Shown piece after piece: positions 3,601 through 64,000 of a DNA stretch of 64,000 bases. A model generated the notes under the pieces. It worked only from the letters and a program-made list of their open reading frames with translations. It was not told where the DNA came from and did no database searches. This DNA is from Morinoia aosen (lineage: Eukaryota; Arthropoda; Malacostraca; Amphipoda; Talitridae). The stretch covers positions 64,709,936-64,773,935 of the forward strand of contig CM059564.1 in assembly GCA_030386875.1 (NCBI GenBank). The letters are read 5' to 3'. Every line of letters starts with the position of its first letter. Position 1 is the stretch's first letter. The position numbers were made by a program, and so were the translations under genes.

Positions 3601-6600
3601 AAAAATCAGCACAATCCATGTGAAATTCATGACAAACTGGCTGTCTCTGAGGATGTTCATTGCGTTAGCAGCGTTAATTTGGGCGAAACTGCATTCAGGA
3701 ATTTCGAGCCGTTCTGTTTTTTGACTTTGAAACACTTTCAAGGCCTCTTCGGCGGCGTCCGATCAGGGTTTGGTATGAATCACTTAAGGAAATGAAGCAA
3801 ATATAAGGCGTTAGGTCACTTGGTTTCTTGCTAACAAAAATTTTTTGAAATTAACCCTCGCTTTTACGCTCTGTGGAAGAGTTCGTGCGTGGATATTTCA
3901 CAGCTGCACACGAGCTATGCCTTAACGTGACCGTCGGGACCGTGTCTTGTAACGTACTTTACGTCGCCTGTAAACCTCTTTCACGGTAAAAATTTTCCAA
4001 ACCTGAAATTTCGAGCGGGAAAGCGCGCATACAAATTTATTACCTCAAAGGGCAATTCTTTACCGAGGTTCATTTGCTCATTCAGGGTCAGTTTTGCTAG
4101 ACTGGAAAATCGATTCACAAATTCTGAGCATATAGGTGGGTCCTTATTTCAACTGCATTTTTTAAATTCTACCCATACCACATAATCGAGTGCCTTGCGT
4201 TCTCCTCCACGAGCTCACAGACTAGTTAGATTTTTGTCAAGTGATTCGATAGCAATGGAGATGCATTCTTTCGTTTCATTGTGTGAGCTTCACGTAACTC
4301 CCGCAATGTTATCCGAATGATATAGGTACAGTAGATGGAAAGGACTTCTTTTGGCATTTATATCCACTTACCCTGTGTTCAACGAGGGTCTGTAGGTGAC
4401 ATGTTCGAAAATTATGTTTGAAATCTAACGTCAAATGTTTGAAACATAAATGATTTCATGCATTTGTATCATGTCTCATCGACGGGGATTGGCGTAACTC
4501 TTGTAGGATGCTACTTGCAACACTCGTACCGTCACTTGGCTAAGGGTTTTGATTCCATCTCGGAATCAAAATTTTTCTTTTCAAATTCTGTTTGCCAAGC
4601 TTTCGAAATGTTGCGATTCTGCTCGAAAATTTTGCGTTTAATATCTTCAATGAATAAATTATGCCAGTTTTTCATTGTCAATGATCTAATAATAATGAGC
4701 TTGTAACTCTCAAAACGTGACATCATCTGTAATTTCCAAACTATATTGTTCAAGTGAAAATTGAATGAAGTTAGTTACAGCATTTGTGTGATCTCTCACT
4801 GCCGCCTAACTCGACATTAATTTGCCATCACTATTTTTATCCAGATATATAATAATAGCTCCTCCATTTTTCTACTTAGCCTAGTTTTGAATGTTGAAGG
4901 CCGAATCTACCTCATCTTCGTCATTTCACGTTGGCATTCACGCGGTCATTGTTAATTTTGTTATTTTGTGAGCTTTTTCTATTATAATTATCGTCTTTGC
5001 TCGCTCTTTTTCGGTGTTTTATTGCCGAAATGTGATTGACTTTTTCTTAGTGTAAAAAGAATTTTTTCATATTATTCCGTTCAATCAAATATTAGCTTCG
5101 TTCATTCATTATCACTGAAGTTCTCCATTTTTTAAATGATCGTGACTCGTTCTCATACTCGTTCATACTGAAATTAGAATTTGGTTTCAGTTCAAGTTAG
5201 GTTCGTTTTTTCATTGTCGTGAAAAATCAGCGCCAAATTAAATTGATTCAATGATAAATATAGCACAAAAATAATAACAGGTAGAAAGCAAAGAAGATCG
5301 ATACATTTTCTGACTAGATTATCAAATAATTCTTTTCTATGTAGATTGACTTTGGAGATGCATTTAAAAAACACGTAAGCTCGTATAATATGTATGTATG
5401 CACAAGTATTGGAGTTCTTTTCAGTATACAACCACTTATGAATTCATCTCCGTATCGTTTTGCAATGCTTTAAGTTGGCGAGCGCACAAGTTCATTACCA
5501 AATCTACCAAGTATTGGCACGAAGTGCACGTTCCCCTGACGCAGATCTCAGATCATGATCAAGGTCGTCGAGCTGCAAGAGGGGCCACAAAGGTTATACC
5601 AGAATTTCACGAGTCGAACTCTGCGTAAGGATTGTGTTCCCACAGCTCGGCTCGCTGTGGGCAGCGAGGATCCTTAGTGTTTCTCAGGGTCCTTAATGAG
5701 GGAATCGTTCACACGCAATGAATGCCAAAGTCAGGCATTTTTGGGACTCAACTTGAGTAACTCCAGTGGGTGATCATTTTTGTGCTCTTCGGCAAATTGA
5801 ATTTTTAACAGATCCTCATGCAAAAAGAAATTTCGCGAATGAAAAGTGGGAGAACGTGATTTTTTAAATCTTCATTGGCTGAAATACTGATATATATAAA
5901 TGGTTATTCACGGACTGAAATACCCTTGGATTAAGTCTACACTCAGTGGGTCAACATCCTACAGGTATTGTTCTCAAGGCACTTTCCAGTTTGCGAGTTG
6001 TTTGGCCACACGATCTGCCTTTCTTGAACCATTTGTGGTCCCTGTACAACGTAAGCGATTGATGTAACGGTTACGCTCGTGAATGTCAGGTATTACACAC
6101 CCAACTCGAAATTCAGAGCTATATTTTCTATGCGCCAATTTGCCTTTGAAATAATCCTTCAGAATTTGTTGTTCACGAAAAAGGTGACGGAAGAAAGCAA
6201 GTCATCTGTGAAGAATGAGTGCGCTATCGAACACCGTATTTATAGTCAGTCAGATAACTTTGAATAAAGGGATTTATGCAAGGGATGCAATTTGTGTAAG
6301 AAAAAAGCGTAGTCTTTCCAGTTCATCTCACTGACCGTTCTTCGAGATGAGGTTTCGTAATTGGAAAGACATTGTATAGCGAAAAATTTTCATACTAGTC
6401 TATCTTACATTGGAGCATGGCTTAATGATTTTTAAGAGGAAGGTAAATTATCAGTCATATTTGAACGAAAGCTTTTCGGCCGGTCTAAGTTCTGTCGTAA
6501 AGCTTTGAAGTTATATTCAGTTTATAGTACCTAAGAAACCCCAATTTGCATGATCTTTCCAATCATGTCATTATTGATGATCCATTTTTCGACGATCACG

Positions 6601-7719: not shown

Positions 7720-7773
7720 ATCTTCGTAGTGTTGGCAGCAGTGGGCGCCACCACCGCCCAGTTTGGTGGCAAC
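7720..7773 (+). CDS. Secreted S-x-E repeat protein, signal-peptide exon (exon 2)
   Basis: Eighteen codons between an acceptor (TTTTACAG, AG at 7718-7719) and a consensus donor (AAC|GTAAGTA at 7774). The translation IFVVLAAVGATTAQFGGN is the hydrophobic core and cleavage region of a secretory signal peptide, with likely cleavage after ATTA and before QFGG. Both flanking introns are phase 0. The initiator Met and a few residues (typically MK in insect cuticular and other secreted genes) must sit on an upstream exon that I could not locate. The 200-bp intron 7774-7973 leads in frame to the long repeat exon. The exon is too short to stand out as an open frame, but signal peptide, splice sites and phase agree, so I consider it real. 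Confidence 0.8.
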
Positions 7774-7973
7774 GTAAGTAGGCAACTCAAGTGCTCTAAA
7801 ATAATTCAGTGAAAAAATGTTTTCGATGCATCATAATTTCGATTTTTTTGCATCAGACTATATGTTTTTTGCTTTAGTTCCTCATGAATGTATCATGAGA
7901 AAAATATTGTGTGAGTATTTAATTTCCTCATGTTGATCCCGTTATTAAAATTATCTCAATTCGCACCTTTCAG

Positions 7974-9274
7974 ATCCGGCGCAACCGATTCGACTCAGAT
8001 GAGTTCGACAACGACTTCGACGACTTCGACAGAAGTCGAGAACGTATTAGTATAGAAAGAGACAGCATTGAAATAGGCGCCTTCAGAAGAAACAACAACG
8101 CTGCTCGCAACATCGTTAACAACCGCAATCTGAACAACTTGAGGCTACGAAACAGTGACGAATTTAACAGCATCGAAGTCGAAGTACCGATTCGCTCCAG
8201 GCCCGGAAACAACAACTTTCGATTCCGAGACAGCATCGAAACGAACAGCATTGAAGTGCTGCGAGCAGCCAATGTTGCTGGAAACTTTGGTGCCAGGATC
8301 CAAGGCAACACTGGAACCAGCAACACTCTCACGAACAGCGTCCGTGCTCCTGCTCGCACCAATGCCTTCCCTTTCAGAAGAGATAGCATAGAGAGAGACA
8401 GTTTTGAAATCAGAGTACCGATCACTAATACCGGTCGTGCGCCCGTGTCAGTTAACACTAACCCGTTCACGAATGCCAATAACCAACGTACTCCAACTTC
8501 CAACAACTTTAACGCTTTCAGGACGATAAGCGTTGAAGTCGACAGCCGTGAAGTCCGCAACCCATTCACAAATGCCGTGGTGAACAACGCCGTATCGTCT
8601 GCGAGGAACAGGAACAATTTCAGGAGAGGCAGCTTCGAGAGAGACAGCATCGAAATCAGAGTACCAGTCAACAACGTACGCAGCAATATTGGGAACAACA
8701 GGAACGCTTTTAGGAGAGACAGTATCGAAACCAACAGCATTGAAATCGTTAACCCATTCCTCACTGCCAGTCGCAACCAAGTTCGCAACAACAACGCTTT
8801 CAGACGCAATAGCATTGAAGACAGTTTTGAGGTCAGGATTCCTTTCAGAGGTACGAGCCGCACTGTAAACAGAAATACTGCCAGACCAGCCCAAAATGTC
8901 AATTTGTTGAGGAATATTGGTTTCGACAGAGATAGTCGAGAACGCGATAGCATTGAAATTAGACTGTCCCGACCTCCTGCTGCGACATCAAGCCCTCGCA
9001 CCAACGCCAACAACGCTGCTCGTAACCATTTCACAATCGTGAGAGACAGTCTGGAGCGCGACAGCGATGAGTTCGTCACTCCCTTCAGAAGAGGAAACAA
9101 CAGGAACCGAAACACTGTCCAAGCTTCACCCAACACTTTCACGGCTTTCAGGAGAGATAGCATCGAGCGTAATTCTGTCGAAGATCTTTTCGATGATCTC
9201 TTCGATGACGATGCTGATGATAGAGCTCGGGCTCGACTTGCGCTTCAAAACCTTGGCCGTTTGGGCCAAACAAG
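7974..9274 (+). CDS. Secreted S-x-E repeat protein, main repeat exon (exon 3)
   Basis: This exon encodes residues 19-451 of the visible protein plus two bases of residue 452. The acceptor is CACCTTTCAG|ATC (AG at 7972-7973). The donor is CAAG|GTATGT at 9275, phase 2. No internal ATG is needed; the frame opens from the acceptor. The protein is very rich in Asn, Arg, Ser, Asp and Glu, has no Cys and looks disordered. It holds eleven degenerate copies of a unit built on FRRDSIERDSIEIRVP, spaced about 25-45 residues apart. Serines repeatedly sit in S-x-E (SIE, SFE, SRE, SDE, SVE, SLE), about 24 in all. S-x-E is the known target of Fam20C-type secretory-pathway kinases, so heavy phosphorylation outside the cell is an inference. 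Three NPF motifs link it to exon 4. The exon ends in an acidic run, DLFDDLFDDDADD. A structural or adhesive matrix role (cuticle, egg shell, silk or glue) is possible, but no family is recognised. Confidence 0.85.
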
Positions 9275-9311
9275 GTATGTGAATGTGAAAAAGGCTTCAG
9301 CTAAATCTTGA
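9275..9311 (+). CDS. Alternative C-terminal extension of exon 3 (read-through form)
   Basis: If the donor at 9275 is not used, the frame continues for 12 codons (RYVNVKKASAKS, counting the split codon read as AGG) to a TGA at 9309-9311. The result is a protein of about 463 visible residues with a short basic tail instead of the proline-rich exon 4. An AATAAA at 9457 supports use of this end. Whether the form exists is not shown by DNA alone; the strong donor consensus says splicing is also expected. Confidence 0.5.
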
Positions 9312-9456
9312 CCTGTAATTGTTTAATTTCAAGCTTGAGAAAGTTTTTAGATTTCAGGCCAATGTAAATTATTGTTCTGCATTCGCGGTAGCAGGTCGTT
9401 TACATCCTGCATCGAAGGTGTGTCGAACATTGTTGCTGCATTACGCTGGTTACATT

Positions 9457-9462
9457 AATAAA
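9457..9462 (+). promoter_or_regulatory. Candidate intronic poly(A) signal
   Basis: A canonical AATAAA lies 146 bp past the read-through stop at 9311, inside the intron between exons 3 and 4. Its position fits a short 3' UTR for the truncated isoform. The downstream sequence is T-rich but not strikingly GT-rich. Confidence 0.5.
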
Positions 9463-10245
9463 ACATCGGCCAATTGAAACTTAACGTCATATTTTATGTT
9501 CCATTCTACGACTTGGTAAACGAAATATGTCCAAAAAGAGTACATGATCACGAGTGCCGTAGTTCATTTCGATATTGAAACATCTCTAAAAACCTATTTA
9601 GAATTAAATTCTAAATCCTTACACATTTTTGAGCATTTCTATTCCTTGGTTCACCTCGCAGGCGTTCGGCATAAAGAAGTAATTCATATCATACGATCTC
9701 GTGTATATTTCGCAGATTTTTATAAAGGTTTTAAGTTAGTTCAAAAATATATAGTAGCTAAAGTGAGCCGTTTCTCTAGATTGATAAACTCGTGTTGCAC
9801 TACCTACGGTATTCCGTGTGATATACTATCACATGTGAATTTTTTACCTTACCTAAAAATCCGAAAGAAAACTCCCAACTCAGCTGCAATATTTGTCCAG
9901 CATGCGCCGGGGCAGCTTCTTATCATTATACTGCAGGTTGCGACTGCCAGAAATACTGTAAATGTTGTAGTAATAAGACACACAATTTCTGCCATACATT
10001 ATTGTGAAGTTTGCCGCGTGAAATTGTTCATATCATTTCAGGTTGATCTTAAGGATAAAATTTCAAAACATAAACCAATCATAGTGCTCCGTTTTGTAGA
10101 TGTGTCTTTTTAAATTATTTCAATCTACTGTCCCAAAAGGGCAGTTTCATTTTAAGGCTAATTGCTATTGAGTGGAGCATATACAAACAAATAATGAAGT
10201 TGTTGATAAACGTTTTAGTTTCTACTGTTTTTCTTTTTTTCACAG

Positions 10246-11302
10246 CAGCTCGAGGGGGCAGCAAAATCCATTCACAAGCAACACTGTTGGACGACCGCTT
10301 TCAGCAACCAATGCCCGTGTGAACACGAATACTTTCTCGACCGCCAACGCAGGATCACAAATAGCCAGCATACCTGCCAGTGTTGGGCGCCCTCTACCTG
10401 CGACCAACACCCTCACTTCTACTAACGCTGTTGCTGCTACTTCAAGACAGCCAAACCCCTTCCTGGGACGTCCTCTGCCCGCCTCAGACAACCGCAACAC
10501 TTTCAGCACCGGCTCCAGGCCGGCCTCGACACCCGCACAGCCTGCAGCGCCAGCTGGTCGTCCCTTGTCGGCAACCAGGAGTCAGTCTCAAGGGGCAAGA
10601 TTCCCTCCTGCTCCTCCAGTGGCACCTGTTCGTCCTGTGACTCCTGCTCGCCCTGTCGCTCCTGCTCGTCCTGCGGCACCTGCTAGCCCTGTGGCACCTG
10701 CTCGCCCTGTGACACCTGCTCCTTCAGTGGCACCTGCTCGCCCTGTGACTCCTGCTCGCCCTGCGACTCCTGCTAGACCAGCGGCTCAGAGCAATCCTTT
10801 CCTCTTCAGACCTGTAAGTAACCAGAATGCCATCCAGAGAACGAACACAGTCTTCACACCCATCGCCAATAACAACGTTGGGCGACCGCTACCAGTATTC
10901 TCGAGCCCTCAACGCCCTGCACCTCGTACAACTCCACGACCTCCCGTAACTACAACTACTACTCCTCCTCCCCGGCGAACTTCTGTTACAGCACCAAGAC
11001 AGCCTTCCTTCAACAATCAGAATGAGTTATTATCTCAAGGTAATCCCTTCCTCTCTGCTGCCCGACTTAATGACGCTGCAAGACCTGCCTCCTCCAAGCC
11101 ATCTAGCAATCCATTCATCAGGCAAAACTCGATCTCGACTGCGTCACAGAAGAAGACCTCGACCAGAAAGAAGAGCGGCAGGAAACCAATACCTGTACGA
11201 GTTCCGGAAGGTTTTGAATGGCCTGGTGGTAATGGCTACTACTTCAGAATGAGCACAGGCAACTCCAAGCCCATTCAATATTTCATAAGTTACGACGACT
11301 GA
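10246..11302 (+). CDS. Secreted S-x-E repeat protein, proline-rich terminal exon (exon 4)
   Basis: The acceptor follows a long T tract (TTTTTTTCACAG, AG at 10244-10245) and enters in phase 2, exactly matching the exon 3 donor. The joined codon is AG|C, giving GQT-S-SSRG. The exon encodes residues 453-803 and stops at TGA 11300-11302. Features are five GRPL motifs (VGRPLSATN type), five NPF motifs, a block of about nine P-V/A-x-P-A-R units near 10619-10789, a TTTTTPPP run, a basic stretch (KKTSTRKKSGRKP) and the end PVRVPEGFEWPGGNGYYF followed by a short YISYDD-like tail. That aromatic end has the only Trp seen and may be a small folded or binding module. There is no Cys and no S-x-E. Joining exons 2-4 gives 2,412 nt, an exact multiple of three. 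Family unknown. Confidence 0.82.
10619..10789 (+). repeat. 18-bp coding minisatellite in exon 4
   Basis: About nine imperfect head-to-tail units of CCTGTGACTCCTGCTCGC encode P-V-T-P-A-R or close variants. The array lies wholly in frame, so unit gain or loss would change protein length without breaking the frame. Confidence 0.8.
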
Positions 11303-29300: not shown

Positions 29301-31134
29301 TTATTTTCAAAATTCCTCTCTAAAATTGACTCTAATTTGAATTAAATATTTAACTTTAGTTTAACTCGCCGCAGTTAACGTGGTTTGCTCGGTAGAAACT
29401 GATGCATATGGTTTTTGAGCTGCATAAACTACTACAGCGATTGAGCACGTTGTTAACCTTTCAATTGAACCTCTAATTTGCAATTATTAAAAAACTAGCA
29501 CTCCCATGCCGTCACTAACGACACCGTAATTTTAGACATTTGCGTTTGGTCACTTATTTTCGCCTTATCTCATGTATGCTATCTTTTTAGTTTTACTCTA
29601 CACCAGTGCTGCCTTTTTTCATGCCGGCCTTTCGTCTGTCAGATTGATCATGGGTTTCATTTGGTATCTTCTCGCAAATCTTTCTCGTTCCAGCTGCGGT
29701 CTGCTCTTCTGTTACATTTTTCCCCGATGAGAATACTTCATCATGGCTCGTCGTTTTATCTTTCCATTTCTTCATTATGATGCCCTCAGATACCTTCACT
29801 TATCATGCGATCATTTGAGCTAGTTTTGGGATAGAATCCACCGTCGTTGTCTCTCATTCTCTTTCCTCTTTACATCGGAGATTCTATGCTGAGGTAGGGC
29901 TTTAAGTAGCTACCTTCGCTGCTTAGGAAATGTCGCAATGAGCTAATAACTTAAAAATTCTGATGTTTTCCAAAGATGTAGATGGCGGTGTTATAGTGAG
30001 TCTTTCAACTTCTTATTTAATGACGAAACATCAGCTGCGCGTGCTTTAAGTGATTGCCCTTCACCTCATATTGGGGGACTTGCCACTCCTCGACGATATG
30101 TAACATACCTGATGTTACACTCAGGGAGGTTATGCAGATAGTGTCTGTCTTCGTCAGTGTATTTCGGCGAAGTAGCGCTACTCAGCAGCTGCCCAAGCTT
30201 CTCACCACAAAATGAGCGATTCTTGTTGCGAGAGTCTGTTGTTATTGTTAGGTGAGCCTTACCTTCATTATTTACTTCTCTGGCTCTCCCGGGAGAGGCC
30301 GGTCTACCGTGCAATTGACCTCCTACACGACTGTCTTCGGTCGTTATTCTTCACTCTCATTCATCATTTCGTTTCATTGAGATGCGCATTCTTTTTCTAA
30401 TGGAGCGAGCTGTGGGTTGACTTGTATGATTACTCGACTTCTCAGCAGTGCAAGTGACTCTACAATATGCGTATTTGGAGCGTAATAGAAAGAAATGCTG
30501 ATGCACTAGTTAATATTTATCACTCTACTAACTTGTTTTAGGATGATCCGCATCAGTAAAATCCCTAGTTGGCCTACTAGATCCGAAGTTAAAGGTATTT
30601 GTAAAAGTTCTTTGGAAAGCGAAATTCAATCTTTGTGAGCCTAAAAATGGTTATAAATGCGCATCTGCCTGATAGGAAATAATCATTTCTGAAGTTCTAC
30701 CGGGTTAGTAGGATCGATTCTGTGAGTTAATTGTCATTACGCATCCCTCCTAATATAATGCTTGACTGTATGCGGCTAAAATACTCGAATATAAATATTT
30801 TGCATATAGCAGGGGCAAATAAAGCCGTTCTTTGGGACATTTTTTGAAAAGGACGCAGTTTTTTTAAATGCCGTTCTGCATTTTTATTTGTGTGTTGAGC
30901 TTTACATGGAATCAGGGCAGACACTGCGAATTTTACCAACATAGTACTGAATGTTGACCTGGACGTGCCGCTCTCCTCACGCAGTTGTGAGTGCAGAGCT
31001 ACTGCTGTGCTTTACCTCAAATTTCAAGTGCGATGGCCTCTTCAGTAATGCTAATTGGCACTTGGGAAACTTTGTGATAGACTTCAGCTCGACAAATAAA
31101 ACATCTCCCTTTATGCGACTTTAGATTTTATAAG
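26315..31134. other. Intergenic, no supported gene
   Basis: Nearly 5 kb without a gene I can support. A weak middle fragment of SINE-A may lie at about 26,810-26,870 (TTGCCGTTTCTATGCGCATAG). A G+C-richer patch at 28,330-28,430 has short open frames only. Confidence 0.4.
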
Positions 31135-31151
31135 ACTTCAGTCTACATTGT

Positions 31152-31218
31152 ATGGAACTTCAAACTTCACTCTAATGGACTTCAGACTTCACTCTACGGA
31201 CCTTCAGACTTCACTCTG
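31152..31218 (+). repeat. 22-23-bp tandem repeat, three units
   Basis: Units at 31152-31174, 31175-31196 and 31197-31218 follow the pattern ATGGACTTCAGACTTCACTC with one to three changes each. Partial units continue on both sides (31130-31151 and 31219-31260). Confidence 0.85.
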
Positions 31219-31260
31219 TAAGAATTCAAACTTTAACGAACTAGACTTCATACTTTACCT

Positions 31261-60691: not shown

Positions 60692-61650
60692 CGAGGCCTG
60701 TCGAAAAAGTATCCGACCTTTGGCCAGAAAAAATACTTCAACAACCTGACGGGGTTGGGACCCTAATCCCCTTCAAAGTAGGCTCCTTGTGCTTCCACAC
60801 ACTTAGCCCACCGATCCTTCCACTGCCGGAAACACCTCTGGAAGTCTTCTTTTGGAATGGTGTTCAGCTCTGTCGTCGCGTTCCGCATTATCTCTTCTCT
60901 ACTCTCAAAACGGGATCCTTTCAGTGGTGTCTTCAATTTTGGAAACAACCAGAAGTCGCAAGGAGCCAGGTCTGGAGAGTAGGGAGGTTGGCGAACGGTC
61001 GTAATTCCATGTTTGGCCAAGAAATTGCGGATCAAATGGGATGAATGTGCGGGCGCGTTGTCGTGATGCAAGTGCCAGTTGTTCGCAGTCCACATGTCTG
61101 GTCTTTTGCGCCGAACTGCATCACGAAGTCGCCGGAGAACATCCTGATAGTACTCCTTTGTCACTGTTTGTCCTTCCGGTGCGTATTCGTGATGCACAAT
61201 TCCACGGACATCAAAGAAAACAGTCAGCATCACCTTGATTTTGCTTCGCACCTGCCGCGCTTTCTTCGGCCTTGGAGACTCGGGATGCTTCCATTGGGAT
61301 GACTGTCTTTTTGTTTCTGGGTCGTACCCGTACACCCATGACTCATCTCCAGTTATCACGGTGTTCAGAAACCCAGGATCAGTGTTGGCGGTGTCCAGAA
61401 GGTCCTGTGCAACGTCACGACGGAGGTCTTTTTGTTCCGGCGACAACAACTTGGGCACGAATTTGGACAAACACTTAGAACAGCACCTTACTTGGCGACC
61501 ACCAGCCAGTGACTGGCCCAAGTGAATGCGGTGAAAAAAGTCAAGCATGCGCATTAAGATTCCTCCTTCCACCGTGCACAGTGGCGCCGCCTTAGAATCA
61601 CTACTTTGCGCGGGAAAAATTAAGGTCGGATACTTTTTCGACAGGCCTCG
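60692..61650 (-). mobile_element. Mariner (Tc1/mariner superfamily) element, internally deleted
   Basis: Complete from end to end at 959 bp. The left end begins CGAGGCCTGTCGAAAAAGTA, and its first 29 bp (60692-60720) are the exact reverse complement of the last 29 bp (61622-61650). TA flanks both sides (60690-60691 and 61651-61652), the target duplication of this superfamily. Typical mariners are about 1.3 kb, so roughly 0.3-0.4 kb is missing, corresponding to the N-terminal half of the transposase. Perfect terminal repeats and an undamaged frame point to a recent insertion. It can no longer be autonomous but could be moved in trans. It lies about 440 bp downstream of the stop of the serine-rich gene, on the same strand. 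Confidence 0.96.
60763..61554 (-). pseudogene. Mariner transposase, catalytic domain only (N-terminal DNA-binding region deleted)
   Basis: Cut-and-paste transposase fragment. The frame is open without break from 61665 to the stop at 60763; the first ATG inside the element is at 61554, giving 263 residues. From that Met, the catalytic triad is D70 (ITGDESWVYGYDP), D165 (HHDNAPAHSS) and D200 (YSPDLAPCDFWLFPK). The last two are separated by 34 residues, the D,D34D signature of true mariners. The linker remnant KFVPKLLSPEQK is kept and the C terminus is normal (YFEGD). The paired helix-turn-helix that binds the terminal repeats, normally the first about 110 residues, is missing, replaced by leader-derived codons. 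An upstream ATG at 61663-61665 lies in host DNA. It is therefore probably inactive in binding although the catalytic core is intact. Confidence 0.93.
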
Positions 61651-61652
61651 TA

Positions 61653-62090
61653 GTAAGCAATCCATGCCACAACACTTACAATCTCATGTTAGCATTTCAG
61701 ACTTGTCTGAACATTCCATGGGATATTCCAATCACAATGTCCTCTATTTGTAGTTACAGATATGAATAAACTGAGGCAAAGGACCACTAGATGAAGTTCA
61801 GCAGTGCACTTCATCGTATATGTTCTATATTTAAATGGTTTCGAAAATGGGCTAATAAGGGCGACAATGTGATCAATTTTTTCCGCACACTCTGAACGAG
61901 CTCATTTCCTTTTTTTCACAAAACTTTTGAGCACGTTTTTGCACCAAAGTTGAATAATTCTTTTCCTAATATCGAATGGTAGAAGTTGTGGACGCAAAAC
62001 ACTGGAAAGTTTTAAATCGCTACCATGATAAATCAATCATTCCCACGACAAAAGAAGCGCAACTGTTTGCGCTGCTGAAAGAACCACGCA
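61653..62090. other. 3' flank (probable 3' UTR side) of the serine-rich gene
   Basis: On the minus strand this is the sequence after the stop at 62091. I see no AATAAA on that strand before the mariner, so the transcript end is not placed; it could run up to or through the mariner. Confidence 0.4.
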
Positions 62091-62594
62091 TCATACATGG
62101 GTCTCTCTTTCTGTGCTAGGGTGTGGCTTGGTGGGAGACAAGCATTCGTCAGTCGTACTGATGGTTGCATCATCCATAGTTTCTTTGTGATCTTCTTGGA
62201 CACAGGCAGGCGAGAAAGCCGCATTATTCATGTCAGCTCCCCATGATGGTGAAGTAATAACAAGTGGAGACGCCTCTGCTTCGTCGTCACTCAGCTTGTT
62301 TCTCAAGGAAGCGTTCGATCCTTCTTGAGGGTTTATAACTTTACGTATTTGATCCCGCAACTTTCGAACTGTCTCCATAGAAGACGAGGACAACTGCTGA
62401 GCAAAATTTGAACGAGCCGAAGAATGGTTGCTCTCGGTTGAAGTTAAATCTGACAGCGACGATATTTCTTTCATATGGAGTTCCCCATGAAATGAAGGGA
62501 AACTCCCCATGCTGTCAGAAGGACTTGTTAAGTTCAGTGACTTGGGCCGAGTGGGCCGAGCTTCAGAGGGACTCCTTAGTAAAGGGGAAGACAC
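62091..62594 (-). CDS. Serine-rich protein of unknown family, last coding exon
   Basis: The acceptor TTTAATTGTGCAG|GTGTCTTCC is phase 0 and matches the upstream exon. It encodes 167 residues and stops at TGA (62093-62091). The chain is rich in Ser, Thr, Pro, Asp and Glu with SP/TP sites (LLRSPSEA, SLNLTSPSDS, CLSPTKP), mostly disordered. One likely helix is METVRKLRDQIRKVINPQ (residues 73-90 of the exon). The last residues are STERETHV; E-T-H-V fits the class I PDZ ligand pattern S/T-x-hydrophobic at the very C terminus, so binding to a PDZ scaffold at a membrane or junction is an inference. I do not recognise the family. A weak alternative donor (CAT|GTATGA) overlaps the stop, so a further exon cannot be fully excluded. 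Confidence 0.72.
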   Translation of the reverse strand: MSSPLLRSPSEARPTRPKSLNLTSPSDSMGSFPSFHGELHMKEISSLSDLTSTESNHSSARSNFAQQLSSSSMETVRKLRDQIRKVINPQEGSNASLRNKLSDDEAEASPLVITSPSWGADMNNAAFSPACVQEDHKETMDDATISTTDECLSPTKPHPSTERETHV

Positions 62595-62743
62595 CTGCAC
62601 AATTAAAGCAAGAAAAAAATAATTTATATAAGTACTTGCACGGATAATAGAAGCATGAATAATAGAAAATGTCAAAATAAGGCTGATCATATTGGAATGA
62701 TACTCTCGCACCTTAAAGTAACACCAGAAACATCGACACTCAC

Positions 62744-63218
62744 CTCAGCATTTTTATCGTCAATTTCGTTGTCAGATACTTCAGTACTGTCAGCTGGTGG
62801 CGTCTTTCCGTTTTGTGCTGCTGCGATAATGGTGTCTTCACCGAAAGTTACGGTTGGGTAGATAGACTTAGCTTGGCTCCTGAACTTGTTTTCAGGGACA
62901 TTCGCTGCAGCCATCGCTCTCTGAGGGGAGCCCAGCGACGCCTTCTTCTCGGGCACTGGGCCTGCGGCGCGCACTCGCTCAGACGATATTTTGCGATCAG
63001 AGGACACCTTCCGTTCTGACGGATGTTCATTGATGTTCACGGGACTTTCGACGCTAAATTTTCTGCTGCCTCTGCTGTCTTTTCTGACATCAAACCGTGC
63101 ATCTCCTTGGCTCATAGCGCTGCTTTTGCGACTACTGGCATTGCTTTTGAGGTTTTCTTGCAAGCTTATTTTGGGAGACACGTTGGCTGAAACATCCGAG
63201 CGGACGACAGAAGATGTT
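62744..63218 (-). CDS. Serine-rich protein of unknown family, internal exon
   Basis: The acceptor AATTTTGTGCAG|A is phase 2 and the donor GCTGAG|GTGAGT is phase 0. It encodes 158 full codons plus the split Arg codon. Basic Ser-rich stretches dominate (NASSRKSSAMSQGDARF, VRKDSRGSRKFSVESP, SERKVSSDRKISSER), with repeated R/K-x-S sites typical of basophilic kinase targets such as PKA. The end turns acidic (STEVSDNEIDDKNAE). There is no membrane segment or Cys, so this looks like a regulated cytoplasmic tail or linker of a larger protein. Splice sites on both sides are good and the phases fit both neighbours. An 149-bp intron (62595-62743) separates it from the last exon. Confidence 0.78.
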
Positions 63219-63404
63219 CTGCACAAAATTAGGAATAACCTTGATTTTACTCCTGTATTTGGACTAGGAAGTAAAAGTATTGGTGAATAATAGGAAAAAT
63301 ATTGAATGTGTAGTTCAGCTATAAAAAAATGAGCAATCACATTTCGTAAAAAGAAAAAGCATTTCAAAGAGAAGAAATACCTGGGCGCAAGCAAGAAGTT
63401 ATAC

Positions 63405-63603
63405 CTTGAAATAGAAGCATCGTTGACGTTTCTGCTAGGGGAGAAACTAGAAGAAGCGAGCGAAGTGTTGTCTCCGTCGGGCATTTGGGTGATAACTCTG
63501 TGGGGCAGCAGAGGGGACGACTGCAGGTACACGACGTCGACCTCCTCACCGCCGAGAATTACGCCAATGCCCTTCTTGCCCTCAACGCCTTGTTGGAGGT
63601 CCT
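63405..63603 (-). CDS. Serine-rich protein of unknown family, first visible exon
   Basis: The acceptor ATGCTTCACAG|AG is phase 1, so earlier exons must exist, probably beyond 64000. The donor is TTTCAAG|GTATAA, phase 2. It encodes 65 codons: EDLQQGVEGKKGIGVILGGE, then VDVVYLQSSPLLPHRV, ITQMPDGDNTS and a Ser-rich run. The first half looks more ordered than the rest and is the best probe for naming the family. I do not recognise it. The 186-bp intron that follows (63219-63404) is a multiple of three and has no stop in frame, so its retention would be silent to the reading frame. Confidence 0.75.
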
Positions 63604-64000
63604 CTGTGAAGCATGTAGAATTTAACTTGAAAGTCTCATGGAAAGTACAGACAATGATTAAATAAACAATGCCCGCGAATAACAAGCAATAAAAATTAAA
63701 TATCATTAAGCAATGACAGCCATTGTGAGTTCAGGTCGGCAGTTTTTGTTGTTAGGTTCCAACTTGCACGAACAAGCTTCCGACTTATTATGGAGTAGCC
63801 ACCTGAAATAGCTAGGTTTTAAAATTAACCTCTTTACACAAAATTCTCCTTCCTAGTTCGCGTCTTGACCTCTGGCCTGTTCAATAGCTTCTGCCTTGAA
63901 TTAAGGTTTCAACTTCGTAGACTAGAAGAGAAAGCGTAAGGGTACCCGCACACGAGCAACTTTTTATTGTCAGTTGCCACAACTAAAAAATTGTCCAAAA
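63604..64000. other. Upstream intron of the serine-rich gene, no exon seen
   Basis: On the minus strand this should be intron before the first visible exon. The frame happens to stay open as far as 63706 but the translation is hydrophobic and AT-driven, typical of intron. No further exon is apparent before the window end. Confidence 0.45.

Follow-up and report, generated by a model that had tools for sequence, protein, structure and literature searches.

The 64,000-nucleotide stretch of DNA analysed here (the window) contains a gene whose third exon encodes 24 S-x-E triplets, and the codons of these triplets support the conclusion that selection maintains Ser with Glu at +2, the motif of Fam20C. 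This conclusion is drawn from three observations: change at the Ser and Glu codons is exclusively synonymous, no half-lost cores are present, and Thr or Asp variants of the motif are absent. The encoded protein is probably secreted, and we consider it slightly favoured that it is a largely disordered phosphoprotein, most likely of the calcifying cuticle or of a calcium store, and similar to orchestin.

Gene structure and secretion

The first-pass annotation had given the gene the span 7974..9274. These boundaries matched exon 3, but the protein continues into exon 4. Exon 3 (7974..9274, + strand) comprises the S-x-E repeat region and lies between consensus splice sites (acceptor TTTCAG, donor GTATGT). 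Its coding content amounts to 433 residues, with two bases left over for a split codon, which is completed by exon 4 (10246..11302, + strand; acceptor TTTCACAG). Exon 4 encodes a basic, Pro/Ala/Arg-rich half without any S-x-E and ends with a TGA stop codon at 11300-11302. Upstream, exon 2 (7720..7773, + strand; acceptor TTTTACAG, donor GTAAGT) joins exon 3 in phase and encodes a signal-peptide core with a cleavage-like end (IFVVLAAVGATTAQFGGN). Without exon 1, the joined protein of exons 2-4 has 803 residues, of which about 790 make up the mature chain after the signal peptide. A stop-free frame of 197 aa at 9520-10113 (+), within the intron that separates exon 3 from exon 4, may be due to chance, and an antisense open frame of 424 aa (7970-9244, -) opposite exon 3 most likely arises incidentally from the way the codons of the repeats are composed. 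A bacterial promoter scan upstream of the gene, which is not meaningful here, gave no signal above shuffles.

The protein had also been credited with a clear signal peptide. The hydrophobic core and the cleavage-like end are indeed present in exon 2 (IFVVLAAVGATTAQ), while the start codon lies in a proposed upstream exon; we therefore regard the signal peptide as well indicated and incomplete. Candidates for exon 1 were sought in the window and the 19.7 kb upstream of it, as ATG exons of at most 8 codons whose frame agrees with exon 2. Two of them scored 7 of 8 donor bases: 6425..6442 (+ strand; MIFKRK, donor AG/GTAAAT), which is the best-scoring short in-frame ATG exon inside the window and our tentative exon 1, and MFPESQHL, located ∼2.6 kb upstream of the window (donor TG/GTAAGT). 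Five further candidates reached 6 of 8 donor bases. At the other end of the protein, the stretch at 11183..11299 (+ strand; KPIPVRVPEGFEWPGGNGYYFRMSTGNSKPIQYFISYDD) contains all the Tyr, Trp and Met residues that exons 2-4 encode. Because these are confined to the last 27 positions, the C-terminus may form a small order-prone module.

The composition of exons 3-4 (7974-11299) is consistent with passage through the ER. No N-x-S/T sequon was found there, against 15.2 expected, and none of 20,000 shuffles was as low, although the shuffle overstates significance as the repeats share descent. Exon 3 alone gave 0 against 9.76 expected (0 of 20,000 shuffles as low) and exon 4 alone 0 against 4.71 (96 of 20,000). 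Control triplets were common in exons 3-4, with 13 [S/T]-x-N, 22 N-[S/T] and 19 N-x-x-[S/T]. Since Asn, Ser and Thr are all abundant, we take the absence of sequons to mean that N-glycosylation was selected against in a protein passing through the ER.

Selection on the Ser and Glu of S-x-E

Exon 3 had been described as eleven diverged units with about 24 S-x-E, mostly two per unit, and our count agreed: 24 S-x-E, made up of one lone motif, one triple and ten pairs, with eleven units carrying at least two. Of the 25 Glu residues in the exon, 24 lie inside an S-x-E. All motifs are on the + strand. The lone one, SDE, whose Ser codon is TCA, is at 7995..8003. It is followed by the triple of core 1 (SRERISIERDSIE, 8034..8072), core 2 (SDEFNSIE, 8154..8177), core 3 (SIETNSIE, 8232..8255), core 4 (SIERDSFE, 8385..8408), core 5 (SVEVDSRE, 8529..8552), core 6 (SFERDSIE, 8631..8654), core 7 (SIETNSIE, 8721..8744), core 8 (SIEDSFE, 8811..8831), whose spacing is one residue shorter, core 9 (SRERDSIE, 8934..8957), core 10 (SLERDSDE, 9048..9071) and core 11 (SIERNSVE, 9159..9182), in which the second Ser codon is TCT. 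The spacing SxExxSxE occurs at 11 places in exon 3 when the triple is counted twice. One core peptide of this region reads RRDSIERDSIEIRVP, and Asp/Phe-rich acidic patches flank the region on both sides (7992-8030, DSDEFDNDFDDFD; 9180-9221, EDLFDDLFDDDADD). Exon 4 has 39 Ser and not a single S-x-E; its Glu residues also number just 3.

In 20,000 shuffles of exon 3, S-x-E averaged 2.19 and never exceeded 9, versus the 24 observed, and SxExxSxE averaged 0.011 with at most 2, versus 11. On the basis of these shuffles, and of the lack of half-lost cores and of Thr or Asp substitutes described below, we rejected the idea that the motif is due to chance or to composition.

Codons were compared among the ten regularly spaced cores; the triple entered without its first S-x-E, and neither the lone motif nor the shorter core 8 was included. 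All four S/E columns showed 0 nonsynonymous differences in 45 pairs each, with 25, 24, 17 and 9 synonymous ones; 9 of the 17 stem from one TCT codon among AGY codons. Pooled over these columns, 75 of 180 codon pairs differed synonymously and the residue was never changed. In contrast, 24-35 of 45 pairs were nonsynonymous in the four columns between S and E, in line with the earlier remark that S and E are kept in variable surroundings. Upstream of the first Ser, column -2 (mostly Arg) had 9 of 45 nonsynonymous pairs and column -1 had 29 of 45.

Because S and E had served to choose the cores of this comparison, we added tests that do not depend on such a choice. One of them took all windows of regular spacing in which three or more of the four core residues are present; the shorter core is outside its scope. 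Eleven windows, all in exon 3, had the four residues and none had exactly three. S-x-D, T-x-E and T-x-D were all absent from exon 3, a joint absence seen in 21 of 20,000 shuffles, and Asp is commoner than Glu in this exon (31 vs 25). In a neutral simulation (star tree, K80), crude in that it ignores the unit tree and gene conversion, full retention of the forty residues was seen twice in 400 runs at 0.05 substitutions per site; at four higher rates (0.1 to 0.5) it was never seen, with 400 runs per rate. The claim of selection on the motif itself was thus borne out by the synonymous-only change at S/E, the lack of half-lost cores and the lack of Thr/Asp substitutes.

Repeats that arose by recent tandem duplication, or low-complexity drift, could in principle leave the same pattern as a by-product on which selection never acted. 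Exon 3 is a repeat region, the Ser of S-x-E is encoded by AGY in 22 of 24 cases, as shared descent would have it, and the last Glu column has just 9 synonymous differences in 45 pairs. The other 2 of 24 codons are TCN, more than one base change from AGY; the S/E columns carry 9-25 synonymous differences in 45 pairs and none that are nonsynonymous; the linkers vary in length and sequence; and Tandem Repeats Finder reports no array in exon 3. We consider this explanation scarcely credible, and recent tandem duplication as such was rejected on the 75 of 180 synonymously different S/E codon pairs without residue change and on the simulation. Elsewhere in the window, a 22-base unit is arrayed in about 4 copies (31134-31233) in otherwise unannotated DNA.

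Conservation around the motif is partial. Arg stands at -2 before 16 of the 24 Ser of S-x-E, and Asp or Asn at -1 before 20 of 24, which suggests that selection may act on more than the bare S-x-E. Two other explanations of the cores were weighed. In the first, the core, of the type RDSIERDSIE, would be a short unphosphorylated motif that binds ions or proteins, with the Ser-Glu pattern kept for direct contacts; a conservation that exceeds S and E fits it. A direct acidic ligand, however, should sometimes accept Asp in place of Glu or Thr in place of Ser, and neither is present, and the four positions between S and E are far more variable than S and E themselves. On balance we judge a role of this kind improbable. 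In the second, the intended reader would be a basophilic kinase, PKA-like kinases recognizing R-R-x-S, and the protein would reside outside the secretory lumen. Exon 3 contains five matches to R-[R/N]-x-S, but this motif is found at only 5 of the 24 sites and Glu at +2 is universal; the signal-peptide core of exon 2 and the absence of sequons also speak against it, so that we give it a very slim chance. Selection on Ser with Glu at +2 for phosphorylation by a Fam20C-type kinase remains the reading that we prefer.

The Fam20C-type kinase, the host genome and the search for relatives

The genome searched comprises 1.99 Gb in 29 contigs, with the gene on contig C9. The PF06702 (Fam20C) profile matched four stretches on contig C20. 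All four exceed the curated cut-off, and they are arranged as expected of one gene. The first stretch contains one TGA and the other three none; we take this TGA to fall past the exon end, since the open frame covers that domain without a stop. When the joined exons were compared with the PDB, the best matches were two Fam20C chains (245 and 244 bits), followed by Fam20A (204 and 202), H03A11.1 (184) and xylosylkinase (162). The gene retains DRHHYE and LDxGRGFG, which we take to be catalytic motifs. On the strength of its best match, then, a Fam20C-type kinase is encoded in this genome; a second kinase gene, such as Fam20B, was not among the matches listed in the PF06702 profile search. The earlier equation of S-x-E with the Fam20C consensus agrees with 24 S-x-E free of Asp or Thr variants and with the presence in this genome of a gene for a Fam20C-type kinase. 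Fam20C is reported to phosphorylate secreted proteins including SIBLING proteins and caseins (PMC3416761), in which S-x-E are its sites (PMC5824888). The Drosophila counterpart is described there as a Golgi protein that seems unconnected with mineral, its casein kinase activity being given as 'not shown' (PMC3416761), and knockdown of Fam20C in the pearl oyster is stated to disturb nacre (PMC5824888).

An arthropod origin, proposed earlier, was supported by the hemocyanins of the genome, which are closest to malacostracan ones among the few crustacean groups that the PDB covers; on this basis we assign the genome to a malacostracan crustacean. Among 17 hemocyanin-domain matches, one scored 441 bits against 1hc1 and 436-440 against 6l8s, with every other listed chain at 212 or below, and a second scored 439 bits against 1hc1. 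We take 1hc1 and 6l8s to be spiny lobster and shrimp hemocyanins and the other chains to be chelicerate and insect ones. The hemocyanin genes form two clusters, on contig C23 (∼9.01-9.06 Mb) and on contig C13 (∼64.80-64.90 Mb), and the central domain occupies a single open frame of at least 510 aa in 14 of the 15 copies listed. Near the end of the window, a 306-aa open frame (60763-61683, -) matched Transposase_1 (E 8e-20) and DDE_3 (E 3e-11) and is presumably mariner-like. Two Ser-rich open frames of 217 and 347 aa (62091-63730, -) resemble the exons of another gene and had no Pfam match above the cut-off.

It had been suggested that the protein may be undescribed, and the collections searched are consistent with this. 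Exons 2-4 had no Pfam match up to E = 1; in particular, they lack the Chitin_bind_4 (R&R) and Cuticle_1 domains, though the genome has both families, Cuticle_1 as three repeats in one frame. Six peptide strings of the protein were absent from the literature searched, and among the papers listed there no title or opening abstract line described a crustacean Fam20C substrate. Exon 3 had no match among viral contigs and exon 4 none among prokaryote genomes; two viral contigs matched exon 4, restricted to its Pro/Ala-rich residues 95-185. Among solved structures there was no credible match to exon 3 (E 0.45 and above) or to exon 4 (E 0.003 and above, the best two in the low-complexity part).

Searches of its own genome with exon 3, with the last 60 residues and with a double-SIE pattern yielded no credible paralogue. 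The one true match of exon 3 was itself. A weak second match on contig C16 (E 6e-4) has 8 stop codons; it corresponds to a short-unit DNA repeat (segment L004 1300-2200) with SIEGAPVQ- and SSEGTPVQ-like peptides and many stops. The last 60 residues gave two second matches at chance level (E 3.7 and 3.8), in frames of 28 residues. At the DNA level, SIE-x-[N/D]-SIE with AGY serines was found at 9 places genome-wide, 3 of them in the gene, against 8 for the reversed control; of the six places outside the gene, two overlapping ones fall in a simple tandem repeat and the others lie in frames of 12-79 residues, so that the pattern outside the gene is no more frequent than the control. Exon 4 matched at least 41 further genomic places among the best 116 of 6018 candidates scored, all within its Pro/Ala/Arg-rich residues 104-213.

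Proposed function and comparison with known systems

A matrix or adhesive role, as first suggested, is a reasonable guess. Under the reading that we prefer, the protein would enter the secretory pathway, where Fam20C would phosphorylate the Ser of the paired S-x-E cores. The phosphates would turn the Arg/Asn-rich, mildly basic repeat region strongly acidic, giving it the ability to bind calcium, newly forming mineral or basic partners, among them the protein's own basic C-terminal half. The likeliest setting would be a calcifying cuticle or a calcium store, where the protein would work like orchestin; phosphorylation, calcium binding and tissue are all predicted from the sequence. By simple arithmetic, with -2 per phosphate and every site filled, the charge of exon 3 would change from +14 to -34. 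With +34 for exon 4, the mature chain would pass from +48 to 0. By charge and hydropathy, exon 3 and exon 4 are each placed on the disordered side of the boundary.

Some observations count against this reading. In the repeat backbone, Arg and Asn are abundant rather than Asp and Glu, and in an invertebrate biomineral, the Lottia (limpet) shell, the phosphosites fit S-x-E just in part: 16 of 46 fit S-x-E or related motifs and 30 do not. The lack of an evident tie between Drosophila Fam20C and mineral also speaks against a mineral role. Of at least 115 R&R cuticle-domain matches in the genome, none was listed near the gene, the nearest on C9 being ∼21.7 Mb away, so that a cuticle role gains no backing from where the gene lies.

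The charge values invite two further proposals. The same phosphoprotein could serve as a component of an adhesive, a silk or a coacervate, with the acidic half, the basic half and calcium giving a cohesive phase. Full phosphorylation would indeed set -34 in exon 3 against +34 in exon 4, zero overall, and the C-terminal half is disordered, of low complexity and rich in Pro, Ala and Arg. This balance, however, is arithmetic that presumes all sites filled, and the only 4 Tyr of exons 2-4 are all C-terminal, which leaves little room for DOPA-type chemistry; we regard such a use as unlikely. Slightly more doubtful is a charge switch within a single chain, from basic (+48) to neutral, by which the acidic and basic halves would condense with calcium as an extracellular matrix or as a store of amorphous mineral. 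If true, this would amount to a crustacean design for phosphoprotein coacervation within one gene.

For the favoured role in a calcifying cuticle or calcium store, the closest system is orchestin of the amphipod Orchestia, which is also malacostracan and phosphorylated on serine. Calcium binding by orchestin is reported to require its phosphorylation (PMC4094399; title cited in PMC3335408). By analogy, a phosphate-dependent role as a calcium- or mineral-binding matrix protein is likely here. Orchestin differs in having been described from calcium stores, and its likeness to the present protein is one of description. CAP-1 of the crayfish Procambarus clarkii is likewise a crustacean exoskeleton protein, reported to be acidic and associated with calcification, with a calcium-binding C-terminal part (PMC9496343); the title of a paper cited for CAP-1/CAP-2 includes 'phosphorylated peptide'. 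It is a peptide by name, whereas the protein described here is about 790 residues long, matches no Pfam family and is basic until modified. For the proposed matrix role, CAP-1 and the pearl oyster Fam20C serve as precedents alongside orchestin.

Beyond crustaceans, the vertebrate SIBLING proteins and caseins are secreted and reported to be phosphorylated by Fam20C at S-x-E (PMC3416761, PMC5824888). In the present protein, by contrast, most S-x-E form fixed pairs along a repeat backbone rich in Arg and Asn, and comparison with the former through Pfam and PDB gave no credible match. cfMSP-1 of the scallop Chlamys farreri is a mineral protein in which repeated S-D-E have been proposed as Fam20C sites; unlike the present protein, it is a mollusc shell protein, extremely acidic, with eight motifs (PMC5824888). 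The 24 selected S-x-E and the Fam20C-type kinase provide evidence, at the level of sequence, of the same recognition rule in a crustacean, and the protein of exon 3 is a ready substrate for testing Fam20C recognition in crustaceans. Phosphorylated extracellular proteins are a known kind in bone, in milk and in one crustacean calcium-store protein, and the present protein probably belongs with them.
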